This document shows positions 49,314 to 62,911 of a stretch of DNA of 64,000 bases, piece after piece. The translations under genes and the position numbers were made by a program. The stretch is from Rhodobacteraceae bacterium M382 (GTDB lineage: Bacteria; Pseudomonadota; Alphaproteobacteria; Rhodobacterales; Rhodobacteraceae). The stretch spans positions 1,494,501 through 1,558,500 of the forward strand of contig CP081098.1 in the NCBI GenBank assembly GCA_025141015.1. The letters are read 5' to 3'. How positions within the stretch are numbered: the stretch's first letter is position 1; every line of letters begins with the position of its first letter. Below the pieces are notes generated by a model, which did no database searches, had not been told where the DNA came from, and saw only the letters and a list, made by a program, of their open reading frames with translations.

Positions 49314-50708
49314 TCACGCGGCTTGGGGCGACAGGGTCACCCGATTGCGCCCGGCATGTTTGGCCGCATATAGCGCCTGATCAGCCTTGCCAATCAACTG
49401 TTCAACCTGGTTGCGGCCGGTGTCTGAAAGTGACGGTCCCAAGGTGCCACCGATGCTGATGGTGACGGGGACAGGGTGGTCGACTTTGGCGACCTGAAAC
49501 GGGCTGTGGTTTACGACCCGGCACAGTTCACTGGCAGTTTTCTGCAATTCGTTGGCCGTTGTCCCGGGCATGACGATCAGGAATTCCTCGCCGCCGACCC
49601 TTGCAGCCAGATCACCCGGACGCAGAACCGACCGCAATCGTTTGGCGGTTTCGACCAGAACCGCATCCCCGGCCGGGTGGCCGTAGCGGTCGTTGATCGA
49701 TTTGAAATGATCCAGATCTGCGAGGATCACCGCAAAACTCTGGTTATGCAGCTCTGCATGCTGTGACAACCGGGCCAGATAGGGCAGGGCATAGCGGCGA
49801 TTGTATAACCCGGTCATCGGGTCCAGAACCGCCGCGCGTAATCCGCTGCGCACCTGGTCGCGGACCCTGTCGCTTTGTGCCTTGAGGCGCAGTTGGGTTC
49901 GTAATCGCAGCGCCAGCTCGTCGACACAGAACCCGGTCTGCATTGCGTCATGGGCCCCCCGGTCCAGCGCTTCGGCCGCCAGTTTCGGGCTGGCCGGGTT
50001 GGGCACGGCAATGACAACCGTCTGGCGCGTGGCAGCGCGGGCGCGCAAATCGGCGAGCAGTCGCAGTCCGGCGCTTTCGGCGCTTTGGTCCAGCTCCAGA
50101 ATGACCGCATCCGGCACCGGATCTGTCATCAGCGCCTGGATGTCGTTCAGTTGATGGGTGCGCAGTTGGTACGGCACCTCGGGTTTCAGCCGGGCGCGCC
50201 ACAGCGCGGCAGTGGCGGCGTTCTGCGCCACAAGTGCAACTGAAATTGTCGATTGCGCCGGAGCAAAGGGCTCCATGCTTTCAGCGAAGCCCATCGCAGG
50301 CGTGCTGTTGCTTTGGTGGGTGATCTCAGCGGTGTTGGTGCGATTGCGGATCAGGCTGCGGATCCGAGCCTGAAGAATAACATCATCCAACGGGTAACTC
50401 AGCACGTCGTCAATTCCAGCCGACAGCGCGGCCAGCCGGTTTTGGCGGTCATTCTGTTCCGTAACAGCAATTATGGGTACGCCTGCAAATCCATCGCTGC
50501 GGGCCAGCATGGCCTTGATATCTGTGACTTTGCCATCGGGCAGGGACATGGCCGACAGGATCAGGTCGGGGCGGGTTCGTTGGATGGTCGCACCCAACCC
50601 TTCCAGCCGTTCAGCCTGTACCACATGATAGTACGCAGCAGTGAGCTGAACCTTGAGCATGATCCGATTGGTGGCCACGCCATCTATGATCAAAATGGTG
50701 CCCTGCAC
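49314..50708 (-). CDS. pleD: PleD-like diguanylate cyclase with two degenerate receiver domains
   Basis: A 464-residue protein with the PleD order REC-REC-GGDEF. The output domain has the active RVGGEEFLIVMPG near 375 and a product-inhibition site RPGD five residues before it. In the first receiver, the phosphoacceptor position is Ala (LILSAMSLP, where LLDVMMP is expected), and the conserved Lys after the fifth strand is Tyr. The second receiver is also degenerate (AVILELDQ). It should still make c-di-GMP but cannot be switched by phosphorylation of that Asp. GTG at 50708 has AAGG upstream and matches PleD's length. Confidence 0.88.
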   Translation of the reverse strand: MQGTILIIDGVATNRIMLKVQLTAAYYHVVQAERLEGLGATIQRTRPDLILSAMSLPDGKVTDIKAMLARSDGFAGVPIIAVTEQNDRQNRLAALSAGIDDVLSYPLDDVILQARIRSLIRNRTNTAEITHQSNSTPAMGFAESMEPFAPAQSTISVALVAQNAATAALWRARLKPEVPYQLRTHQLNDIQALMTDPVPDAVILELDQSAESAGLRLLADLRARAATRQTVVIAVPNPASPKLAAEALDRGAHDAMQTGFCVDELALRLRTQLRLKAQSDRVRDQVRSGLRAAVLDPMTGLYNRRYALPYLARLSQHAELHNQSFAVILADLDHFKSINDRYGHPAGDAVLVETAKRLRSVLRPGDLAARVGGEEFLIVMPGTTANELQKTASELCRVVNHSPFQVAKVDHPVPVTISIGGTLGPSLSDTGRNQVEQLIGKADQALYAAKHAGRNRVTLSPQAA

Positions 50709-50809
50709 ATTAACACCTTTTCCATACTTGCTATACACGATGGTTGAAGTGTTATTGAATGTGGTTAACAAACCCTTTCTTCCATCGCTAAAAATGGTGA
50801 GGTGCGCGC

Positions 50810-51088
50810 GTGAACGCCGATACTGCCGAAACACTTGCCCTGCAGGCGCTGACCTGGCTGGTGGGTAATGATGAACTTCTGCCCGTGTTTCTGGGGGCCA
50901 CCGGAGCGGACGCCAAGGATCTGCGTGCCCGGGCGGATCAACCGGAATTTCTGAGCTCTGTGCTGGACTTCCTGATGATGGATGATGCCTGGGTCATGGC
51001 GTTTTGCGACGCCCATGGTGTCGCTTACGAGATGCCAATGCGGGCGCGGATGTCGCTGCCGGGTGGTGCACAGGTGCATTGGACCTGA
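50810..51088 (+). CDS. DUF3572 protein
   Basis: A 92-residue protein with the DUF3572 pattern: LALQALTWLVGNDELLPVFLGATG near residue 8 and FLSSVLDFLMMDDAWVMAFC near 47. It starts with GTG after GAGGTG. The family is mostly alphaproteobacterial and of unknown function, often located near the divK-pleD locus, as here: it is divergent from pleD with about 100 bases between their starts. Confidence 0.8.
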   Translation: MNADTAETLALQALTWLVGNDELLPVFLGATGADAKDLRARADQPEFLSSVLDFLMMDDAWVMAFCDAHGVAYEMPMRARMSLPGGAQVHWT

Positions 51089-51822: not shown

Positions 51823-51936
51823 CCCTTTTTCGATTGGCACCACTGACAGATCCCGTTGGCCCCCCGGCCAGCGGGTTTTTGCTTTTTGCGGGTGGCGTGA
51901 TCCCGTGGCGATCCTGTGCAATCTCTCTCGAATTTA

Positions 51937-51968
51937 TTTGGAAATCCAAAAACGACAAAACTTGTCGT
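51937..51968 (+). promoter_or_regulatory. tandem palindromes upstream of the MttB-family gene
   Basis: Two inverted repeats lie side by side: TTTGG-aaat-CCAAA (51937-51950) and ACGACAA-aac-TTGTCGT (51952-51968). The second has perfect 7-bp arms around a 3-base centre, a form common for MarR- or TetR-type operators. They are 70-100 bases before the gene start. The regulator is not identifiable here. Confidence 0.6.
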
Positions 51969-52037
51969 GTTTGTTTGTGCGGCTTTTGCGGGTCAACGGC
52001 ACAAATTCGACACATCATGACGCAAGGGAGACATGGC

Positions 52038-53597
52038 ATGGCAGATTCGGCGGGACGCAAACGGCGCGGTGGCGGTCGGGCAGGGGCATCGGCACGGCGC
52101 GGAACCTCGGTGATTGAACAAATGCCCTGGTCGATCCCGATCAACAGGGACAATCCGGTCGAACCCATGCCGCCCGAAGGGGTTGAAGCCATCCACGAGG
52201 GCGCCATGCGGATCCTCGAAGAGATCGGTGTGGTGTTCCTGAACCCCGAAGCGCTGGCGATCTTCAAACAGGCTGGCTGCAAGGTCGATGGTGAACTGGT
52301 CCGTTTTGATCGCGATTTCATCATGGAGATGATCGCCAAGGCCCCCAGCGAATTCACCATCACCCCGCGCAACCCGGATCGGACCATTCCCATCGGTGGC
52401 AACCACATGCTGTTTGGCAATGTCTCATCGCCGCCAAACTATTGGGACATGGAAATCGGCCGCAAGGTGCCCGGCAATCGAGAGATGTGCCAGAACCTTC
52501 TCAAACTGACCCAGTATTTCAACTGCATCCACTTTGCCGGTGGCTATCCGGTGGAACCGGTGGATATTCATGCGTCGGTGCGTCACCTGGATGTGCTGTT
52601 TGACAAGCTGACTATCACCGACAAGGCCATGCACGCCTATAGCCTGGGCAAGGAGCGGGTCGAGGACGTGATGGAGATGGTGCGTATCGCGGGTGGACTC
52701 AGCCACGAAGAATTCGACGCAAAACCGCATATGTACACCAACATCAACTCGACCTCGCCGTTGAAACACGACTACCCGATGATCGACGGGTGTCTGCGGC
52801 TGGCGCGGCGTGGCCAGGCCATCGTTGTATCGCCCTTTACCCTGGCGGGTGCCATGGCACCGGTAACCATGGCCGGAGCGGTTGCACAGTCGATTGCCGA
52901 AAGCCTCTGTGCCATTGCGCTGTTCCAATATGTGGCCCCCGGAACACCCTGTGTCATCGGCACATTCACCTCGAATGTGGACATGAAGACCGGCGCGCCC
53001 GCCTTTGGTACACCGGAATACATGCGTTCGACCCAGATGACCGGCCAGATGGCGCGGTTTTACAACCTGCCAATGCGGTCTTCCGGTGTTTGCGCGGCCA
53101 ATGTGCCGGACGGTCAGGCCATGTGGGAAACCTCGAATTCGCTCTGGGCGGCCGTGCAATCGGGCACCCATATGGTCTATCACGCGGCTGGCTGGCTCGA
53201 GGGCGGGCTGATCGCCAGCCCCGAAAAATTCATCATGGACTGCGAAATCCTGCAACAGATCCAGCGCTACAACCAGCCCGAGATCTGGCGCACTGACACC
53301 GATGACATTGCCTTTGATGCGATCCAAGAGGTCGGCAACGAAGGCCACTTCTTTGGCATTCAGCACACCCAGGACCGTTACTCCACTGCCTTTTACCAAC
53401 CCTTCCTCAGCGATTGGAAAAACTACGAAGGCTGGGAAGCCGCCGGTGCGGTATGGACCCCGGAACGGGCCCATCACATGTTCAAGGACATCATTGCCAA
53501 CTTTGAAGAGCCCCCGATGGAGGTCGCTATCCGCGATGAGCTTGCCGACTTTGTGGCGCGGCGCAAATCCGAAGGCGGTGCCCCGACCGATTTCTAA
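52038..53597 (+). CDS. MttB-superfamily (trimethylamine methyltransferase-like) protein, non-pyrrolysine
   Basis: A 519-residue TIM-barrel methyltransferase of the MttB superfamily. It has a Gly/Arg-rich N-terminus, then EAIHEGAMRILEEIGVVFLNP near 50, HFAGGYPVEPVDIHASVRHLD near 165 and a long barrel region with SPFTLAGAMAPVTMAGA near 265. No in-frame amber codon is used, so it belongs to the large pyrrolysine-lacking group, whose studied members demethylate quaternary amines (glycine betaine, carnitine, proline betaine) onto a corrinoid protein. No corrinoid-protein or MtrH-type gene is adjacent. ATG at 52038 follows AAGGGAG. Confidence 0.88.
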   Translation: MADSAGRKRRGGGRAGASARRGTSVIEQMPWSIPINRDNPVEPMPPEGVEAIHEGAMRILEEIGVVFLNPEALAIFKQAGCKVDGELVRFDRDFIMEMIAKAPSEFTITPRNPDRTIPIGGNHMLFGNVSSPPNYWDMEIGRKVPGNREMCQNLLKLTQYFNCIHFAGGYPVEPVDIHASVRHLDVLFDKLTITDKAMHAYSLGKERVEDVMEMVRIAGGLSHEEFDAKPHMYTNINSTSPLKHDYPMIDGCLRLARRGQAIVVSPFTLAGAMAPVTMAGAVAQSIAESLCAIALFQYVAPGTPCVIGTFTSNVDMKTGAPAFGTPEYMRSTQMTGQMARFYNLPMRSSGVCAANVPDGQAMWETSNSLWAAVQSGTHMVYHAAGWLEGGLIASPEKFIMDCEILQQIQRYNQPEIWRTDTDDIAFDAIQEVGNEGHFFGIQHTQDRYSTAFYQPFLSDWKNYEGWEAAGAVWTPERAHHMFKDIIANFEEPPMEVAIRDELADFVARRKSEGGAPTDF

Positions 53598-53903: not shown

Positions 53904-55685
53904 ATGCCCGCTTCTGTCCCTGCACCATCCTCCGCATCCTTGATGAAGGATCGCCTGTTGTTCAGCGTCTTGGGGAGCGGACTGGCGTTGGCGCTGTGGG
54001 GGTTGGGCGAGAACTGGAACCATTCGGCCTGGCCCCGGGGTGCATTTCTGGCGGCATTCACATTTGTATCGGTCTATGCGGCGGTGGTTCTTGCGCTGAT
54101 TGGCCCGGTGTCCATGGGGCGGGCGCTAATCGGTGCCGGGCTGATTGCTGTACCGGCGACGGTTCTGGTGTCCTTGGGGGGGCAACGATATGTCGATCCG
54201 ATGCAGCTGCTTGATCGGGCACCGGCCCTGACAGTCACGGTGCTTCTTGTCTATCTCGCAACCCCCTTCCTCTCGGTGATCCTGCGCAATCGCAGCGCCT
54301 GGCGGGATTACGCACTGCTGTTTGATACAGCCTGGTCCTTTAGCACGCGCTATCTGTTGGCCTGGATCCTGGTGTCGGTGTTCTGGTTGCTGGTGTTTTT
54401 GTCGGATGCGCTGATGAATCTGATCGGCATTGATCTGATTGAACGGCTCTTGGACTCTGAATGGGTGGTGTTCGGTCTCAGCGGAGGTGTTTTGGGGCTC
54501 GGGCTCGCGGTTGTGTACGAGCTGCGCCAAACCCTGTCTCCTTTTGTCGTGCTGCGGATGTTCCGCATGCTTGTGCCCTTTGTGTTGGTGATCGTCGCGC
54601 TCTTTCTCGCTGCCTTGCCGTTTCGGGGGCTTTCGCAATTGTTTGGCGCGGTGTCCTCGGCTGGAACGCTGATGTCGGTGTGCATCTCGGCAATATGTCT
54701 GATTTCGATTGCCGTGGATCGGGATGACGATGCCCGGGTGTCGTCGGCGGGGCTCAACCTTGCAACACGGGGGCTGGCAATTCTGCTGCCCGGGTTGGCG
54801 GGGCTGGCGATCTGGGCGATTGCGATCCGGGTGGCCCAATATGGATGGACGCCGGATCGCGTTTTGGCAGCGGTGTTTTCCATCGTCCTGGGGCTGTATG
54901 GGGCCGGCTATGCCGGGGCCTCACTGATCAACCGTCGCTGGACCGGACTCATTCGTGGATGGAATGTGATCATGGCCTTTGGTGTCATGACAGTATCGGC
55001 GGCGTGGCTGACGCCGGTACTGGATGCCAACCGGATCAGCACGAACAGCCAGATCACCAGGTTTTCTGCCGGTGAGTTGACGACGCAACAACTGGCCCTG
55101 TGGGCAATGCAACATGATTGGGGCACTGCCGGGCAGGCGGGTTTGGCCCGACTCGAGGCGTTGGTTGATCATCCGGAACACGCCCAATTGGTCCAAAGCA
55201 TCGAGGTCGTGCAGACGCAGCCCGACAAATATCGGTTTGAACAGACATTGATTGACCAGCGTGCACCCGAAGAACTGGCCCAACTCGTCGCTGCAATGCC
55301 TGTCCGCCCTGAAAATAGCCCCCTGAGTGTTGCGGATCTGTCCGGGTTGCCAGAGTTCCGCCGGACGCAATGGCTGACGGCCTGTACACAGATCAGGCCC
55401 GAAGGCACACCAGGCTGTGTTATGATCCGGGGACAGTTTTTGCCGGGGTCAGAAGAACAGGCGATGGTCCTGTTTGTGGATGAATTCAATCGAACCAGGG
55501 TCAACCATCTGATTGTTCGCGCGGACGGCGTCCAGGTTCAGGATGCGTATGACATGGCAACCCGTGGTTGGCCTGAACTGCCTGCAAACGCAGTGGCCGA
55601 TGCGTTGAACGGCGACTTTGACCTGCGCCCGCGCGGCGGCGTTGCCTTGCATATCGGTGGCCAGACGCTCGAGGCCATCCCCTGA
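53904..55685 (+). CDS. DUF4153 membrane protein
   Basis: A 593-residue protein with about ten hydrophobic helices over residues 15-400 and a long soluble C-terminal part (residues 410-593). The VVYELRQTLSPFVVLRMFRMLVPFVLVIVALF stretch and the RISTNSQITRFSAGELTTQQLALWAMQHDWGTAGQAGLARLEAL junction match the DUF4153 family of unknown function. It ends at a clear terminator, so it is a single transcription unit. Confidence 0.85.
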   Translation: MPASVPAPSSASLMKDRLLFSVLGSGLALALWGLGENWNHSAWPRGAFLAAFTFVSVYAAVVLALIGPVSMGRALIGAGLIAVPATVLVSLGGQRYVDPMQLLDRAPALTVTVLLVYLATPFLSVILRNRSAWRDYALLFDTAWSFSTRYLLAWILVSVFWLLVFLSDALMNLIGIDLIERLLDSEWVVFGLSGGVLGLGLAVVYELRQTLSPFVVLRMFRMLVPFVLVIVALFLAALPFRGLSQLFGAVSSAGTLMSVCISAICLISIAVDRDDDARVSSAGLNLATRGLAILLPGLAGLAIWAIAIRVAQYGWTPDRVLAAVFSIVLGLYGAGYAGASLINRRWTGLIRGWNVIMAFGVMTVSAAWLTPVLDANRISTNSQITRFSAGELTTQQLALWAMQHDWGTAGQAGLARLEALVDHPEHAQLVQSIEVVQTQPDKYRFEQTLIDQRAPEELAQLVAAMPVRPENSPLSVADLSGLPEFRRTQWLTACTQIRPEGTPGCVMIRGQFLPGSEEQAMVLFVDEFNRTRVNHLIVRADGVQVQDAYDMATRGWPELPANAVADALNGDFDLRPRGGVALHIGGQTLEAIP

Positions 55686-55720: not shown

Positions 55721-55780
55721 TTGGGTTTTTCTTAAGGGTTGTCCGGTGAAATCTGGGCAACGCGACTAGAGAGGCCAGAC

Positions 55781-56368
55781 ATGCACGGTCTGATCAACAA
55801 GGCCATACAATCTTTTGTATGCAACACATATGGGCAGGAACGATGGCACACGGTGATGGACCGTGCCGGCCTGGGATTCACCGATTTTGAGGCGATGCTG
55901 ATCTATGAAGATGAGCAGTCACAAAAAGTGCTCGCTGAACTGGGGCGCGAATTGGGTCGACCGTTGGATGAAATCCTGGAGGATATGGGAACCTTTCTGG
56001 TATCCCATCCCCAGCTTGAAGCGCTGCGTCGTCTATTGCGGTTTGGAGGGGTGACTTATGTCGAATTCCTGCATTCGCTGGATGATCTGCCTGATCGCGC
56101 ACGGTTGGCAGTGTCGGATTTGCATCTTCCCGCCATGGAACTGAGGGAATATGCATCAGATCAATTCACGTTGACCTGCCACCCCGGATTGCCGGGGTTT
56201 TGCAGCGTCATGGTGGGCGTTCTGCGTGCCATGGCCGATGACTATGGTGCGTTGGCCATGCTGGACCTGAACCCATCGGGCGGGCAAACCGATGTGATTT
56301 CCATAACTTTGATTGAAACCGCGTTTGCAGAAGGCCGCAGCTTTGAACTGGGGGCCCGGGCAGGATGA
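55781..56368 (+). CDS. H-NOX-fold (haem-NO-binding-like) sensor, apparently lacking the haem ligand
   Basis: A 195-residue protein with the overall H-NOX pattern (MHGLINKAIQSFVCNTYGQERW start; FGGVTYVEFLHSLDDL near 87). By eye alignment with studied H-NOX proteins, the proximal haem histidine (as in MMMDEVHLQ) falls on Pro in SLDDLPDRA, and the propionate-binding Y-x-S-x-R falls on CHPGL. Nearby histidines (FLHSL, SDLHLPA) could still bind something. It overlaps the following GGDEF gene as ATGA, the usual H-NOX/cyclase pairing that links NO to c-di-GMP. Confidence 0.75.
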   Translation: MHGLINKAIQSFVCNTYGQERWHTVMDRAGLGFTDFEAMLIYEDEQSQKVLAELGRELGRPLDEILEDMGTFLVSHPQLEALRRLLRFGGVTYVEFLHSLDDLPDRARLAVSDLHLPAMELREYASDQFTLTCHPGLPGFCSVMVGVLRAMADDYGALAMLDLNPSGGQTDVISITLIETAFAEGRSFELGARAG

Positions 56369-57378
56369 TTTCGTCGCCGGAATTCGCCAAGATCCTTGAT
56401 TGTATCTGTCCAATGTATGTCATGCTGGACGAGACGGGCCATATGCTGCGCGTAGGGCCCACCTTGCAAAAGCTGAGACCACAAAGCCTGATGCCAGGCC
56501 AGCGGTTCCTGGAAGTGTTCGAATTGAACCGTCCCCGGTCGATTGACCGTATGGAAACCTTGATGTCCACGGCCGGGGCCAAGCTACACCTGTGTTTCAG
56601 AGATCAACCCAGAACAAGCCTGAAAGGGGTGTTGGTTCCCTTGCCAGAGGAAAAGGGAGCTTTGGTCAATCTGTCTTTTGGTATTTCGGTGCTGGACGCG
56701 GTGCGTGACTATGCGCTGACCAGCGCCGATTTTTCGGCAACGGATCTGACCATTGAACTGTTGTATCTGGTCGAGGCAAAGTCGGCGGCAATGGAAGCAT
56801 CGCGAACGTTGAACCTGCGTTTGCAGGACGCCATGATTGCGGCAGAGGAACAGGCCTTTACGGATACGCTGACCGGGTTGAAGAACCGCCGCGCCATGGA
56901 CCACATTCTGGATCGCACGATTTCCAAATCAAATTGCTTTGCCGTAATGAACCTGGATCTGGACTATTTCAAGACGGTCAATGATACGCTGGGTCATGCT
57001 GCTGGGGATCATGTGCTGGAACATGTGGCGCAGGTCATGATCGCGGAAACGCGCCAATCGGATACTGTTGCACGGGTGGGCGGTGATGAATTCGTTCTGT
57101 TGTTCGACGGTTTGCAGGACCGGGACATCCTGGACAGGATTGCAAGCCGTCTGATCAATCAACTGGAAGAGCCGATTTTCTTTAATGGTCAGGTCTGTCG
57201 GATCTCGGCCAGCATCGGCACTGCGCTGTCGGTTCCGGACCAAAAGACCGAAGCGGCCGTTCTCTTGCACCAGGCGGATGTCGCATTATACGCGGCCAAG
57301 AATGCAGGGCGGGCGCAGCATTTCTTTTATGACCCGTCGCTGGAGGAAACCGAAGAGCAGAAGACGGTGGCGAATTAG
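56365..57378 (+). CDS. diguanylate cyclase with N-terminal HNOBA-like domain
   Basis: A 337-residue protein. Residues 1-150 resemble the H-NOX-associated PAS-like domain (MISSPEFAKILDCICPMYVMLDETGHMLRVGPTLQKL), residues 150-170 form a helical linker (AKSAAMEASRTLNLRLQDAMIAAEEQA), and the GGDEF domain carries DTLTGLKNRRAMD near 165 and the intact active site ARVGGDEFVLLFDG near 240. No RxxD inhibition site precedes it. Its partner is the overlapping H-NOX-fold gene. In related organisms such a pair adjusts c-di-GMP in response to NO. Confidence 0.88.
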   Translation: MISSPEFAKILDCICPMYVMLDETGHMLRVGPTLQKLRPQSLMPGQRFLEVFELNRPRSIDRMETLMSTAGAKLHLCFRDQPRTSLKGVLVPLPEEKGALVNLSFGISVLDAVRDYALTSADFSATDLTIELLYLVEAKSAAMEASRTLNLRLQDAMIAAEEQAFTDTLTGLKNRRAMDHILDRTISKSNCFAVMNLDLDYFKTVNDTLGHAAGDHVLEHVAQVMIAETRQSDTVARVGGDEFVLLFDGLQDRDILDRIASRLINQLEEPIFFNGQVCRISASIGTALSVPDQKTEAAVLLHQADVALYAAKNAGRAQHFFYDPSLEETEEQKTVAN

Positions 57379-58966: not shown

Positions 58967-59170
58967 TGGCCCCGGATTTTTGTTGCCATGACCCCGTTTT
59001 TTTTGGTTGCGAGACTGTCGGTTGTGGATCAACCATTGTGATATGAAAACTGTGCCATCTCTGCTGCGCCGTGCGACCGGCTGTGATCTGGTGACCTGAA
59101 CGGTCGCTTGGGGTGTGTGACACCCGCTCACGCTGTTTGTCCTTTGTTTTCAATTCTCGGAACCTGCAAC

Positions 59171-61249
59171 ATGACTCATGACGCGCTGCGTCTGGCGATC
59201 GATATCGGTGGCACCTTTACAGATACCGTTCTTATGGCCGGTGAGGATCAGATCCTCGCTTCGACCAAGACCCTGACAACCCATGACAATCCGGCCGAGG
59301 GGGCTCTTTTGGGCGCGACGCGGGTGATGCAGGACAGCGGACGCGCGCTGCACCAGGTGACTGGGTTTATTCATGGGACAACCCTGGCAACCAATGCGCT
59401 GATCGAACGGCGTGGCGCACAGGTTGCGACCATCACCACCCAGGGTTTTCGCGACATCCTCGAAATCGCCTATGAGCGACGTTATTCGCAATATGACATA
59501 GATCTGGAAAAACCTGATTTGCTGGTGACGCGGGAGCGGGCCTTTACCGTATGTGAACGGATGTCTGCCGATGGGCAGGTTCTGATCCCTTTGGATGAAG
59601 ACATTTCGGATCTGTTGACAGCGCTTGATGGTTCGGGTGCACAGGCTGTCGCCATCTGCCTGATGCATTCCTATGCCAATGACGCCCATGAACGGCATCT
59701 GCGGGAATTGATACAGATCGCGCGCCCGCATCTGGAGGTGTCAATTTCCTCCGAGGTCAGCCCCGAAGCCCGCGAATTTGACCGGCTATGCACCACCGTG
59801 GCCAATGTTTATATCCAGCCCCTGATGCGCCATTACCTGGAACGTTTCCAGGCAGCTTTTTCCGATCAGGGGCTGACCTGTCCGATCCTGATGATGACTG
59901 CGGGCGGCGGTATGTGCACGTTGGGAACCGCGGCGCGCCTGCCGATCCGGCTGGTTGAATCCGGTCCTGCGGGAGGGGCCATTCTGGCCGCACGGATTGC
60001 CGCGCAGGCGGGGTTGGATGAGGTTCTGAGCTTTGACATGGGCGGCACCACGGCCAAGCTGTGTTTGATCGACAATGCCCGCCCCCAGACCGCGCGACAG
60101 TTTGAAATTGCCCGCGCCGCGCGGTTCATCAAGGGATCAGGTATGCCTGTTCGCATTCCCGTGATCGAGATGATCGAGATCGGGGCCGGCGGTGGATCAA
60201 TCGCGGCGGTGGACCGTCTGGGCCGGCTGAACGTCGGTCCGCGCAGTGCCGGATCAGAGCCTGGTCCAGCCGCCTTTGGTCGCGGCGGCGATGACCCGAC
60301 AGTCAGCGACAGTGACATAGCACTGGGCTATATCCGACCCGAAACATTTGCAGAGGGCCACCTGAAGATCGAACCCGAGGCCGCCCGCCGGGTGTTGGCC
60401 CGCGACATAGGGGACAAGATGGGGACCGATGCCACCGGGGCCGCCGATGGGGTTAGCCGCATCGTCGATGAATCCATGGCCAGCGCGGGGCGCATGCATG
60501 CTGTGGAATCGGGCAAGGATCTGGGGAATCGCACAATGATTGCCTATGGTGGAAATGGCCCATTGCACGCAACACGCGTGGCCCGGGCCTGTGGTGTGTC
60601 GCGTGTGTTGGTTCCGCCAAACCCCGGGGTCGGTTCCGCCGTCGGTTTCCTGTTTGCGCCGGTGTCGTTTGAAATCGTGCGTAGCCGTTATACCTTGCTT
60701 GATGACATCGGATCGGGTGTCAACACGCTGTTGACCGACATGGGAAATGAAGCCCGCGCGGTTGTAGAATTGGGGGCTGATGGTCAAAAGATCGAGCTGC
60801 GCCGCACGGCCTTCATGCGCTATGCAGGACAGGGGCATGAGATCGAAATTTCGCTGCCGAACCATGATCTTGCTGCGGGCGATCTCCCGTTGCTGACCCA
60901 ATCGTTCGAGGCGGAATATCGCCGCCAGTTTTCGCGTCCGGTGCCGGGTATGGTGATCGAGATCCTGAACTGGGCGGTCTATGCGTCGACCCCGGCCCGC
61001 AGGGTTCAGGATGCGGTTGCCGCGCCACCCGAACGGGTTTTGCCCCGACACGATACATCCGAAATCAGCTGTGACATTGATGGTACCCTGAAACAGGCGC
61101 ATCTGATCGCCCGTTGCGATCTGAGTGCAGGGGATGTGGTGCACGGGCCCGCGCTGATATTTGAACCGCAGACCACCACATTGGTCAGTGCTGATTTCAC
61201 CGCTCGGGCCGATGCTCTGGGCAACCTGATCCTGACACGGCAGGGCTGA
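59171..61249 (+). CDS. hyuA: hydantoinase/oxoprolinase subunit A
   Basis: A 692-residue ATP-dependent hydrolase subunit. The N-terminal actin-like domain has AIDIGGTFTDTVLM near residue 8 and FIHGTTLATNALIERRGA near 66. The central Hydantoinase_A block includes SFDMGGTTAKLCLIDN near 294 and EIGAGGGSIAAVDRLGRLNVGPRSAGSEPGPA near 337. Together with HyuB it hydrolyses hydantoin-like or lactam rings at the cost of ATP. Start ATG at 59171 is taken at the family N-terminus; the ribosome site is weak. Confidence 0.92.
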   Translation: MTHDALRLAIDIGGTFTDTVLMAGEDQILASTKTLTTHDNPAEGALLGATRVMQDSGRALHQVTGFIHGTTLATNALIERRGAQVATITTQGFRDILEIAYERRYSQYDIDLEKPDLLVTRERAFTVCERMSADGQVLIPLDEDISDLLTALDGSGAQAVAICLMHSYANDAHERHLRELIQIARPHLEVSISSEVSPEAREFDRLCTTVANVYIQPLMRHYLERFQAAFSDQGLTCPILMMTAGGGMCTLGTAARLPIRLVESGPAGGAILAARIAAQAGLDEVLSFDMGGTTAKLCLIDNARPQTARQFEIARAARFIKGSGMPVRIPVIEMIEIGAGGGSIAAVDRLGRLNVGPRSAGSEPGPAAFGRGGDDPTVSDSDIALGYIRPETFAEGHLKIEPEAARRVLARDIGDKMGTDATGAADGVSRIVDESMASAGRMHAVESGKDLGNRTMIAYGGNGPLHATRVARACGVSRVLVPPNPGVGSAVGFLFAPVSFEIVRSRYTLLDDIGSGVNTLLTDMGNEARAVVELGADGQKIELRRTAFMRYAGQGHEIEISLPNHDLAAGDLPLLTQSFEAEYRRQFSRPVPGMVIEILNWAVYASTPARRVQDAVAAPPERVLPRHDTSEISCDIDGTLKQAHLIARCDLSAGDVVHGPALIFEPQTTTLVSADFTARADALGNLILTRQG

Positions 61250-61261
61250 GGAGAGACCAAG

Positions 61262-62911
61262 ATGACCCAAATTAGCAATGCCCGCCTGCAAGTGATGTGG
61301 AACCGTTTGTTGGCGCTGGTCGAGGAGCAGGGGCAAACCCTGATCCGTGCCGCCTTTTCCCCGATCGTGCGCGAATGCGGCGATATTTCGGCCGGGATCT
61401 TTGACGCCCAGGGACAGATGTTGGCCCAGGCCGTGACCGGAACGCCTGGCCATATCAATACCATGGCCGAAGCGGTGCAACACCTGCGCGCCCGGTTTCC
61501 GTCACAACAGATGCAGCCCGGCGACATCTATATGACCAATGATCCCTGGCTGGCTTCGGGGCATCTGAACGATTTCCTGTTGATGATGCCCGCGTTCAAG
61601 GACGGCAAGGTCGTTGGCTTTACCTCCTGCACCTCGCATTTGGTGGATCTGGGTGGTCTGGGCATGGGGCCCGAGGGGTCGGATATCTATGACGAAGGCC
61701 TGTTGATCCCCCCCTGCAAGCTGGTCGAAGGTGGTGTGCCCAACCCGCTGTTGATGGACATCATCCGGGCAAATTCTCGCGAACCCATTGCCAACGAAGG
61801 CGACATCTATGCTCTGATTGCCTGTTGCGAAGCTGGTGTGAACCGGCTGCTGGGCATGATGGAGGAATACAAGCTCGACGATCTCGAGGAATTGTCCGCC
61901 TACATCATCAACACCTCCCGGCGGGGCACATTGGAGGCTATCGCAGAAGTTCCCAATGGCGTTTATCGCAATGCCATGCGCACGGATGGTTATGATCGCG
62001 AAATCGAGCTGCACGCGACACTCACCATCAGCGACAACCGAATGGTGGTGGATTTCGATGGCACCTCGGGGTGTTCCAACAAGGGCATAAATGTGCCGCT
62101 GAATTATGCGACGGCGTATACGGTGTTTGCGCTGCGCTGTATCGTTGGATCGGACATTCCCAACAACGCCGGGTCGCTCGAGCCGTTTGAGGTCACGGGA
62201 CCTGCGGGATGTATCCTGAACGCGCAGCGGCCGGTGCCGGTGGCAATGCGGCACACCTTGGGGCAAATGACGCCGGATCTGGTGTTCGGGTGCCTGCACC
62301 AGGCGCTGCCTGAACGGGTGCCCGCCGAAGGGGCCTCGTGCATGTTTGATCTGCCAATGCGCCACGCGCCCGAGGTGGCCCGCGACGGGGGGCGCGAATT
62401 CGCCATCGAACCCGTCCATAATGGCGGCACCGGCGCGCGACCCCATGCAGACGGATTGTCGGCGACGGCCTATCCGTCCGGCGTCTGGGGGAGCCAGATC
62501 GAGATCACTGAGGCTGTGGCACCTGTCACAATCTGGCGGCGCGAATTGCGCCCGGACAGCGGTGGTGCCGGGCAGTATCGCGGTGGATTGGGGCAGCGCA
62601 TTGAATTGAGCGCGACCAATGATGCGGCGTTCATGGTGTTCCTGTCGGTTGAACGGTTGAAATTTCCAGCACAGGGCCGGGCCGGGGGGCTGTCCGGCGC
62701 ACCGGGCCGCATCCGGTTCGACGGCGCGGACACGGATATTCCGGGCAAGGGCGAATTGCGGGTCGAACCCGGTCAGCGGTTGATTTTTGAAACCCCAGGC
62801 GGGGGTGGTTTTGGTGATCCGCTCCTGCGCGATCCGCAGGCGCTCGCGCAGGATCTGGCCCGTGATCTGGTCACGCCGACCGGGGCCAAGAAATACGGAG
62901 GTGCCACATGA
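61262..62911 (+). CDS. hyuB: hydantoinase/oxoprolinase subunit B
   Basis: A 549-residue partner of HyuA with the HyuB family blocks: RAAFSPIVRECGDISAGIFD near residue 30, AVTGTPGHINTMA near 58, MTNDPWLASGHLNDF near 92 and HNGGTGARPHADGLSATAYPSGVWGSQIE near 388. It starts 12 bases after hyuA and its end overlaps the aminotransferase gene as ATGA. Substrate choice cannot be read; hydantoins, N-methylhydantoin, oxoproline and caprolactam are known for this family. Confidence 0.93.
   Translation: MTQISNARLQVMWNRLLALVEEQGQTLIRAAFSPIVRECGDISAGIFDAQGQMLAQAVTGTPGHINTMAEAVQHLRARFPSQQMQPGDIYMTNDPWLASGHLNDFLLMMPAFKDGKVVGFTSCTSHLVDLGGLGMGPEGSDIYDEGLLIPPCKLVEGGVPNPLLMDIIRANSREPIANEGDIYALIACCEAGVNRLLGMMEEYKLDDLEELSAYIINTSRRGTLEAIAEVPNGVYRNAMRTDGYDREIELHATLTISDNRMVVDFDGTSGCSNKGINVPLNYATAYTVFALRCIVGSDIPNNAGSLEPFEVTGPAGCILNAQRPVPVAMRHTLGQMTPDLVFGCLHQALPERVPAEGASCMFDLPMRHAPEVARDGGREFAIEPVHNGGTGARPHADGLSATAYPSGVWGSQIEITEAVAPVTIWRRELRPDSGGAGQYRGGLGQRIELSATNDAAFMVFLSVERLKFPAQGRAGGLSGAPGRIRFDGADTDIPGKGELRVEPGQRLIFETPGGGGFGDPLLRDPQALAQDLARDLVTPTGAKKYGGAT

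Follow-up and report, generated by a model that had tools for sequence, protein, structure and literature searches.

A cyclase-linked H-NOX-like protein lacking the proximal histidine and the YxSxR motif in Rhodobacteraceae bacterium M382

Background

The accepted trigger of H-NOX signalling is the rupture of the Fe–His bond (PMC12329717, PMC8196705). In Caulobacter, the H-NOX switch is Cys oxidation rather than NO (PMC12329717), and the alpha subunit of soluble guanylate cyclase (sGC) is an example of a pseudo-H-NOX that is haem-free yet retained within a cyclase (PMC8196705). The H-NOX proteins of Paracoccus denitrificans and R. sphaeroides were stated in 2017 to be without the axial His (PMC5588039). 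In P. denitrificans, hnoX (Pden_3719) overlaps the GGDEF gene encoding DgcA (Pden_3720), an hnoX mutant formed less biofilm and the cyclase double mutant more, and inhibition of the cyclase by H-NOX was proposed (PMC5588039). In Dinoroseobacter shibae, studied by Bedrunka (2018) and described in three further papers (PMC7232146, PMC8846402, PMC6473078), the H-NOX is reported to inhibit the cyclase Dgc1 when NO-bound, and the hnox gene of this species is reported to be under CtrA control.

Organization of the Locus

The locus lies in the window, that is, the whole stretch of 64,000 nucleotides of the Rhodobacteraceae bacterium M382 genome that was analysed, and comprises the following features:

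55721..55735, plus strand: TTGG-N7-TTAA element upstream of hnox, conserved in relatives and showing the spacing of a CtrA box
55781..56368, plus strand: hnoX-like gene, encoding a protein of 195 aa with an H-NOX fold
56090..56092, plus strand: codon of Pro104 (CCT), at the proximal haem histidine site, with the coordinate taken from the reading frame
56177..56191, plus strand: codons of C133-H-P-G-L137, at the YxSxR site of haem-binding H-NOX proteins, placed by alignment
56365..56368, plus strand: ATGA overlap between the hnoX-like gene and the cyclase gene, read from the sequence
56365..57378, plus strand: diguanylate cyclase gene, encoding 337 aa with an N-terminal HNOBA/PAS-like domain, a signalling helix, and a GGDEF domain

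Several neighbouring genes have counterparts in D. shibae. A REC-GGDEF diguanylate cyclase gene (49317–50834, minus strand), situated about 5 kb from the hnox-dgc pair, occupies the position of a second GGDEF gene in that species; the entire genome has only three GGDEF genes, and this gene and the hnox-linked cyclase gene account for two of them. An MTTB-family methyltransferase gene (51834–53597, plus strand; 734 bits) is likewise syntenic with D. shibae, and in some relatives the MTTB gene seems to lie immediately 5' of hnox. Between MTTB and hnox, a gene for a large predicted membrane protein (53904–55685, plus strand) gave no Pfam match at E 1e-5; its D. shibae counterpart is found in the same place and is 34% identical. 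On the other side of the pair, tandem hydantoinase A and B genes are located at 59108–62911 (plus strand).

Fold of the H-NOX-Like Protein and Loss of the Haem Residues

A first-pass annotation, made by eye from the sequence, had assigned the first gene to the H-NOX proteins, and this identity was borne out by both sequence and structure. The protein matched the HNOB model with 84.3 bits, against a curated Pfam cut-off of 25.5, and its AlphaFold model adopted an H-NOX fold with a pLDDT of 91.5. In a structure search, the model matched the Nostoc H-NOX and sGC beta with Z scores of about 20, including 2o09 (Z 20.4, 2.4 A over 178 residues), so that sequence score and fold both place the protein in the HNOB/H-NOX superfamily. 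Like its relatives, it begins at the H-NOX N-terminus, without an N-terminal extension.

The motifs were located against the Nostoc (Ns) H-NOX (2o09/4iae), with a sequence alignment that was ungapped around both of them. Ns His105 falls on Pro104 of the window protein, so the proximal histidine of helix F is absent, while Ns Y134-x-S136-x-R138 falls on C133-H-P135-G-L137, so the YxSxR haem-propionate motif is absent as well; the same two replacements had been read in the first-pass annotation. The protein thus carries neither of the residue features of haem-binding, NO/O2-sensing H-NOX proteins, and the analysis confirmed an H-NOX-fold protein without the proximal His and YxSxR that is coupled to a cyclase.

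The first-pass annotation had suggested that the pair may sense NO through another ligand, such as a nearby His or the Cys of TCHPG, or may sense a different signal altogether; the residues proposed as replacements are poor candidates. His98 (FLHSL) sits on Ns Glu99, which is not on the side of helix F that carries His105, and is variable in the family. His115 (SDLHLPA) sits on Ns Arg116, and only about 17% of relatives have a His there. Both were rejected as stand-in proximal ligands. Cys133 of TCHPG occupies a column that is Cys in about 70–78% of relatives, but it was dismissed as a direct swap for the proximal His because half of the relatives that keep this His also carry Cys133. The hydrophobic residues lining the pocket region are conserved in relatives. 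At the N-terminus, about 92% of sequences in the cyclase-linked clade share His2 (MHG; window 55784–55786), including members that bear the proximal His, and this column is Tyr or Lys in other H-NOX proteins.

Domains of the Partner Cyclase

The linked partner had been described as an HNOBA-like domain joined to an intact GGDEF, and both parts were recovered. The HNOBA match was barely over the cut-off (24.8 vs. 23.4 bits), the GGDEF domain scored 147.5 bits, and the GGDEF motif (residues 239–243) and the RxxD I-site (RQSD) are intact. With this gene adjacent to hnox, the two have the gene arrangement of an H-NOX-associated c-di-GMP enzyme pair, in which the H-NOX would regulate the enzyme, as is reported for D. 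shibae. In the cyclase model, the N-terminal domain is of mixed alpha/beta type and is followed by a long helix at 128–164 (a 37-residue signalling helix) and the GGDEF domain; a Foldseek search with the model returned GGDEF proteins, and the N-terminal domain by itself had no clear match. Soluble guanylate cyclase follows the layout H-NOX, HNOBA-PAS, coiled coil, and cyclase. HNOBA was recognised in 76 of the 81 partner cyclases of relatives, and the window pair is therefore a split form of this layout.

Distribution and History in the Family

In a sample of one genome per genus of the Rhodobacteraceae family, 138 of 198 genomes carried an HNOB gene, compared with 14 of 289 genomes across the class. 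Two kinds of H-NOX occur in the family, a canonical kind with His and YxSxR, mostly not located beside this cyclase, and the cyclase-linked kind. One genome of the same family bears a canonical H-NOX, with His and YxSxR, beside a related cyclase, and was used here as outgroup. Among 110 distinct cyclase-linked sequences of the one-per-genus sample, the proximal column holds Pro in 83, His in 10, and other residues in 17. The Pro state is the majority in the cyclase-linked clade, so a replacement that had at first been treated as unusual is common there and had been reported earlier (PMC5588039). The non-His residues at this column comprise P, S, A, N, R, Q, T, D, K, G, and E, a variety expected where a ligand is dispensable. 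YxSxR is gone throughout the clade, His-bearing members included.

The cyclase adjoins hnox in nearly all relatives, and GGDEF is intact in all 190 partner cyclases considered. The hnox gene evolves under purifying selection, with a median dN/dS of 0.13, and the protein is therefore in use. On two trees, parsimony called for 8 or more switches between His and non-His states, but the deep forks are weak. In the FastTree tree the His-bearing rows are nested, whereas the C20 tree places several of them near the base, and a single His/non-His split was not rejected by the AU test (p 0.18).

Conserved Element Upstream of hnox

TTAA occurred 45–76 nt before the start codon in 76 of 78 relatives, compared with about 9 expected from shuffles, and mostly 45–53 nt 5' of it. 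When the columns were aligned on TTAA, the pattern TTGG-N7-TTAA emerged, with T in 97%, T in 94%, G in 75%, and G in 84% of sequences ahead of TTAA. The two halves are spaced as in the CtrA motif TTAAC-N5-GTTAAC (PMC7232146), suggesting a putative CtrA-binding site. FNR-type boxes upstream of hnox were found in only 1 of the 78 relatives.

Association with Nitrite Reductase

Nitrite reductase was commoner in genomes with the hnox gene (50/135 vs. 11/63; OR 2.8, p 0.005, kinship ignored), an association that fits, and suggests, a lasting link of the gene to NO. Retention of the proximal His was not significantly related to nitrite reductase (6/10 vs. 44/125, p 0.17, genomes without a fetched sequence being counted as non-His) or to the presence of a second, canonical H-NOX (0/10 vs. 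16/125). In the window's genome, a single cluster (G000:C1:2763732-2774822) holds three strong matches of cytochrome d1 type, as in nirS-type denitrifiers, and searches of this genome found neither a second H-NOX nor a FIST/NosP sensor.

Possible Roles of the H-NOX-Like Protein

Given the lost residues, the H-NOX fold, the coupled genes, their conservation, and the purifying selection observed here, we lean towards a pseudo-H-NOX that docks on and restrains the cyclase and is not gated by ordinary His-ligated haem-NO chemistry. The protein keeps the H-NOX fold and probably also the surface by which it would dock on the HNOBA/PAS-like domain of its co-translated partner. With no Fe–His bond to break, its likeliest role is that of a partner that does not respond to NO, and it would be expected to be in, or to move to, the cyclase-restraining state without NO. 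Control might then come from expression (of the CtrA type), from the state of a cofactor that is absent or only loosely held, or from some other cue. By analogy with D. shibae, and with what was suggested for P. denitrificans, the effect on the cyclase would be inhibitory; the H-NOX of P. denitrificans, reported to be His-less, has a mutant phenotype opposite to that of the cyclase double mutant, which fits a partner that is not NO-gated. Two observations count against this interpretation, namely the conserved hydrophobic pocket lining, surprising if the pocket is simply empty (the extension that fills the sGC alpha pocket has no counterpart here), and the association with nitrite reductase.

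These two observations would be accounted for if the protein were still a haem-based NO sensor, holding haem by hydrophobic packing, another residue, or an exogenous ligand and signalling without Fe–His rupture. The nirS-type cluster of the window's genome, the lack of a second H-NOX or FIST/NosP sensor there, and the D. shibae H-NOX, which functions without YxSxR, point the same way. However, no conserved candidate ligand takes the place of the lost His: His98, His115, and Cys133 are variable or shared with His-bearing relatives, as is the well-conserved His2, and we regard continued haem sensing as possible but not probable. A change of ligand across the whole widespread clade, so that the conserved pocket binds something other than His-ligated haem and signals to c-di-GMP, with the His lost repeatedly or lost and regained among close orthologues, seems improbable. 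The pocket might also hold another small ligand, such as a different tetrapyrrole, a lipid, or an acyl compound, on which the pair reports. This would explain why the hydrophobic pocket is conserved though the haem ligands are gone, and it has parallels in TRAPP Bet3, which shows the same fold arrangement (Z about 9) and holds palmitate in one entry, and in the H-NOX pocket that takes a non-haem drug (4iae); a Z of 9 may, however, reflect no more than a common arrangement, and we find this option distinctly improbable.

Redox sensing through Cys133, at the former YxSxR Tyr, would resemble the zinc/Cys oxidation switch of the Vibrio and Caulobacter H-NOX proteins, the Caulobacter case (PMC12329717) being the precedent, and would draw on the frequency of Cys in this column. 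Yet the window protein offers a single conserved Cys without a 3Cys-1His zinc site, and the Cys is missing from roughly a fifth of relatives or more, which leaves this explanation very unlikely. The by-eye origin of the first alignment, a caveat raised with it, could in principle mean that the true proximal His lies elsewhere; given an ungapped alignment around the site, consistent over 220 sequences, and a D. shibae His exactly at the Pro column, such an error is scarcely credible. Across this large and mostly marine family, the majority of the cyclase-linked H-NOX proteins are recognised by the haem-NO-binding model but lack the residues of a haem NO sensor, which is a warning against annotating such genes as NO sensors.

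Comparison with Known Systems

In Shewanella woodyi and Legionella pneumophila, an H-NOX gene likewise adjoins a c-di-GMP enzyme gene (H-NOX/HaCE), but both haem and NO are bound by the H-NOX proteins of these pairs (PMC8846402), and in S. woodyi the enzyme additionally has an EAL domain. With sGC alpha, the window protein shares an H-NOX fold without a working haem site, retained with a PAS–coiled-coil–cyclase chain, and the loss of haem residues (His and/or YxSxR) typical of that class. In sGC alpha, however, the domain is part of a fusion, with an N-terminal extension occupying its pocket, whereas the window protein is separate and has no such pocket-filling extension.

The window pair is the positional orthologue of D. 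shibae H-NOX/Dgc1. D. shibae DFL 12 shares the gene order, with the REC-GGDEF gene, HAD, MTTB, the membrane protein, hnox, and dgc, and the two proteins are 46% and 49% identical, respectively. Both H-NOX proteins lack YxSxR, but that of D. shibae keeps the proximal His (LDDLH), and the window protein has Pro in exactly that column, as does the C. sphaeroides 2.4.1 lineage. Matched orthologues one codon step apart, with His in D. shibae and Pro in the window and C. sphaeroides, therefore exist in nature, and they allow a direct test of the need for the Fe–His bond in H-NOX signalling to c-di-GMP. P. denitrificans Pden_3719, as PMC5588039 describes it, resembles the window protein in being a His-less H-NOX whose gene overlaps that of a cyclase, and the P. 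denitrificans pair and the R. sphaeroides H-NOX differ from their window counterparts only in species and sequence. Cyclase-linked H-NOX proteins without the His were therefore already known (PMC5588039), and the present work adds the conserved element with CtrA spacing and the synteny with D. shibae.
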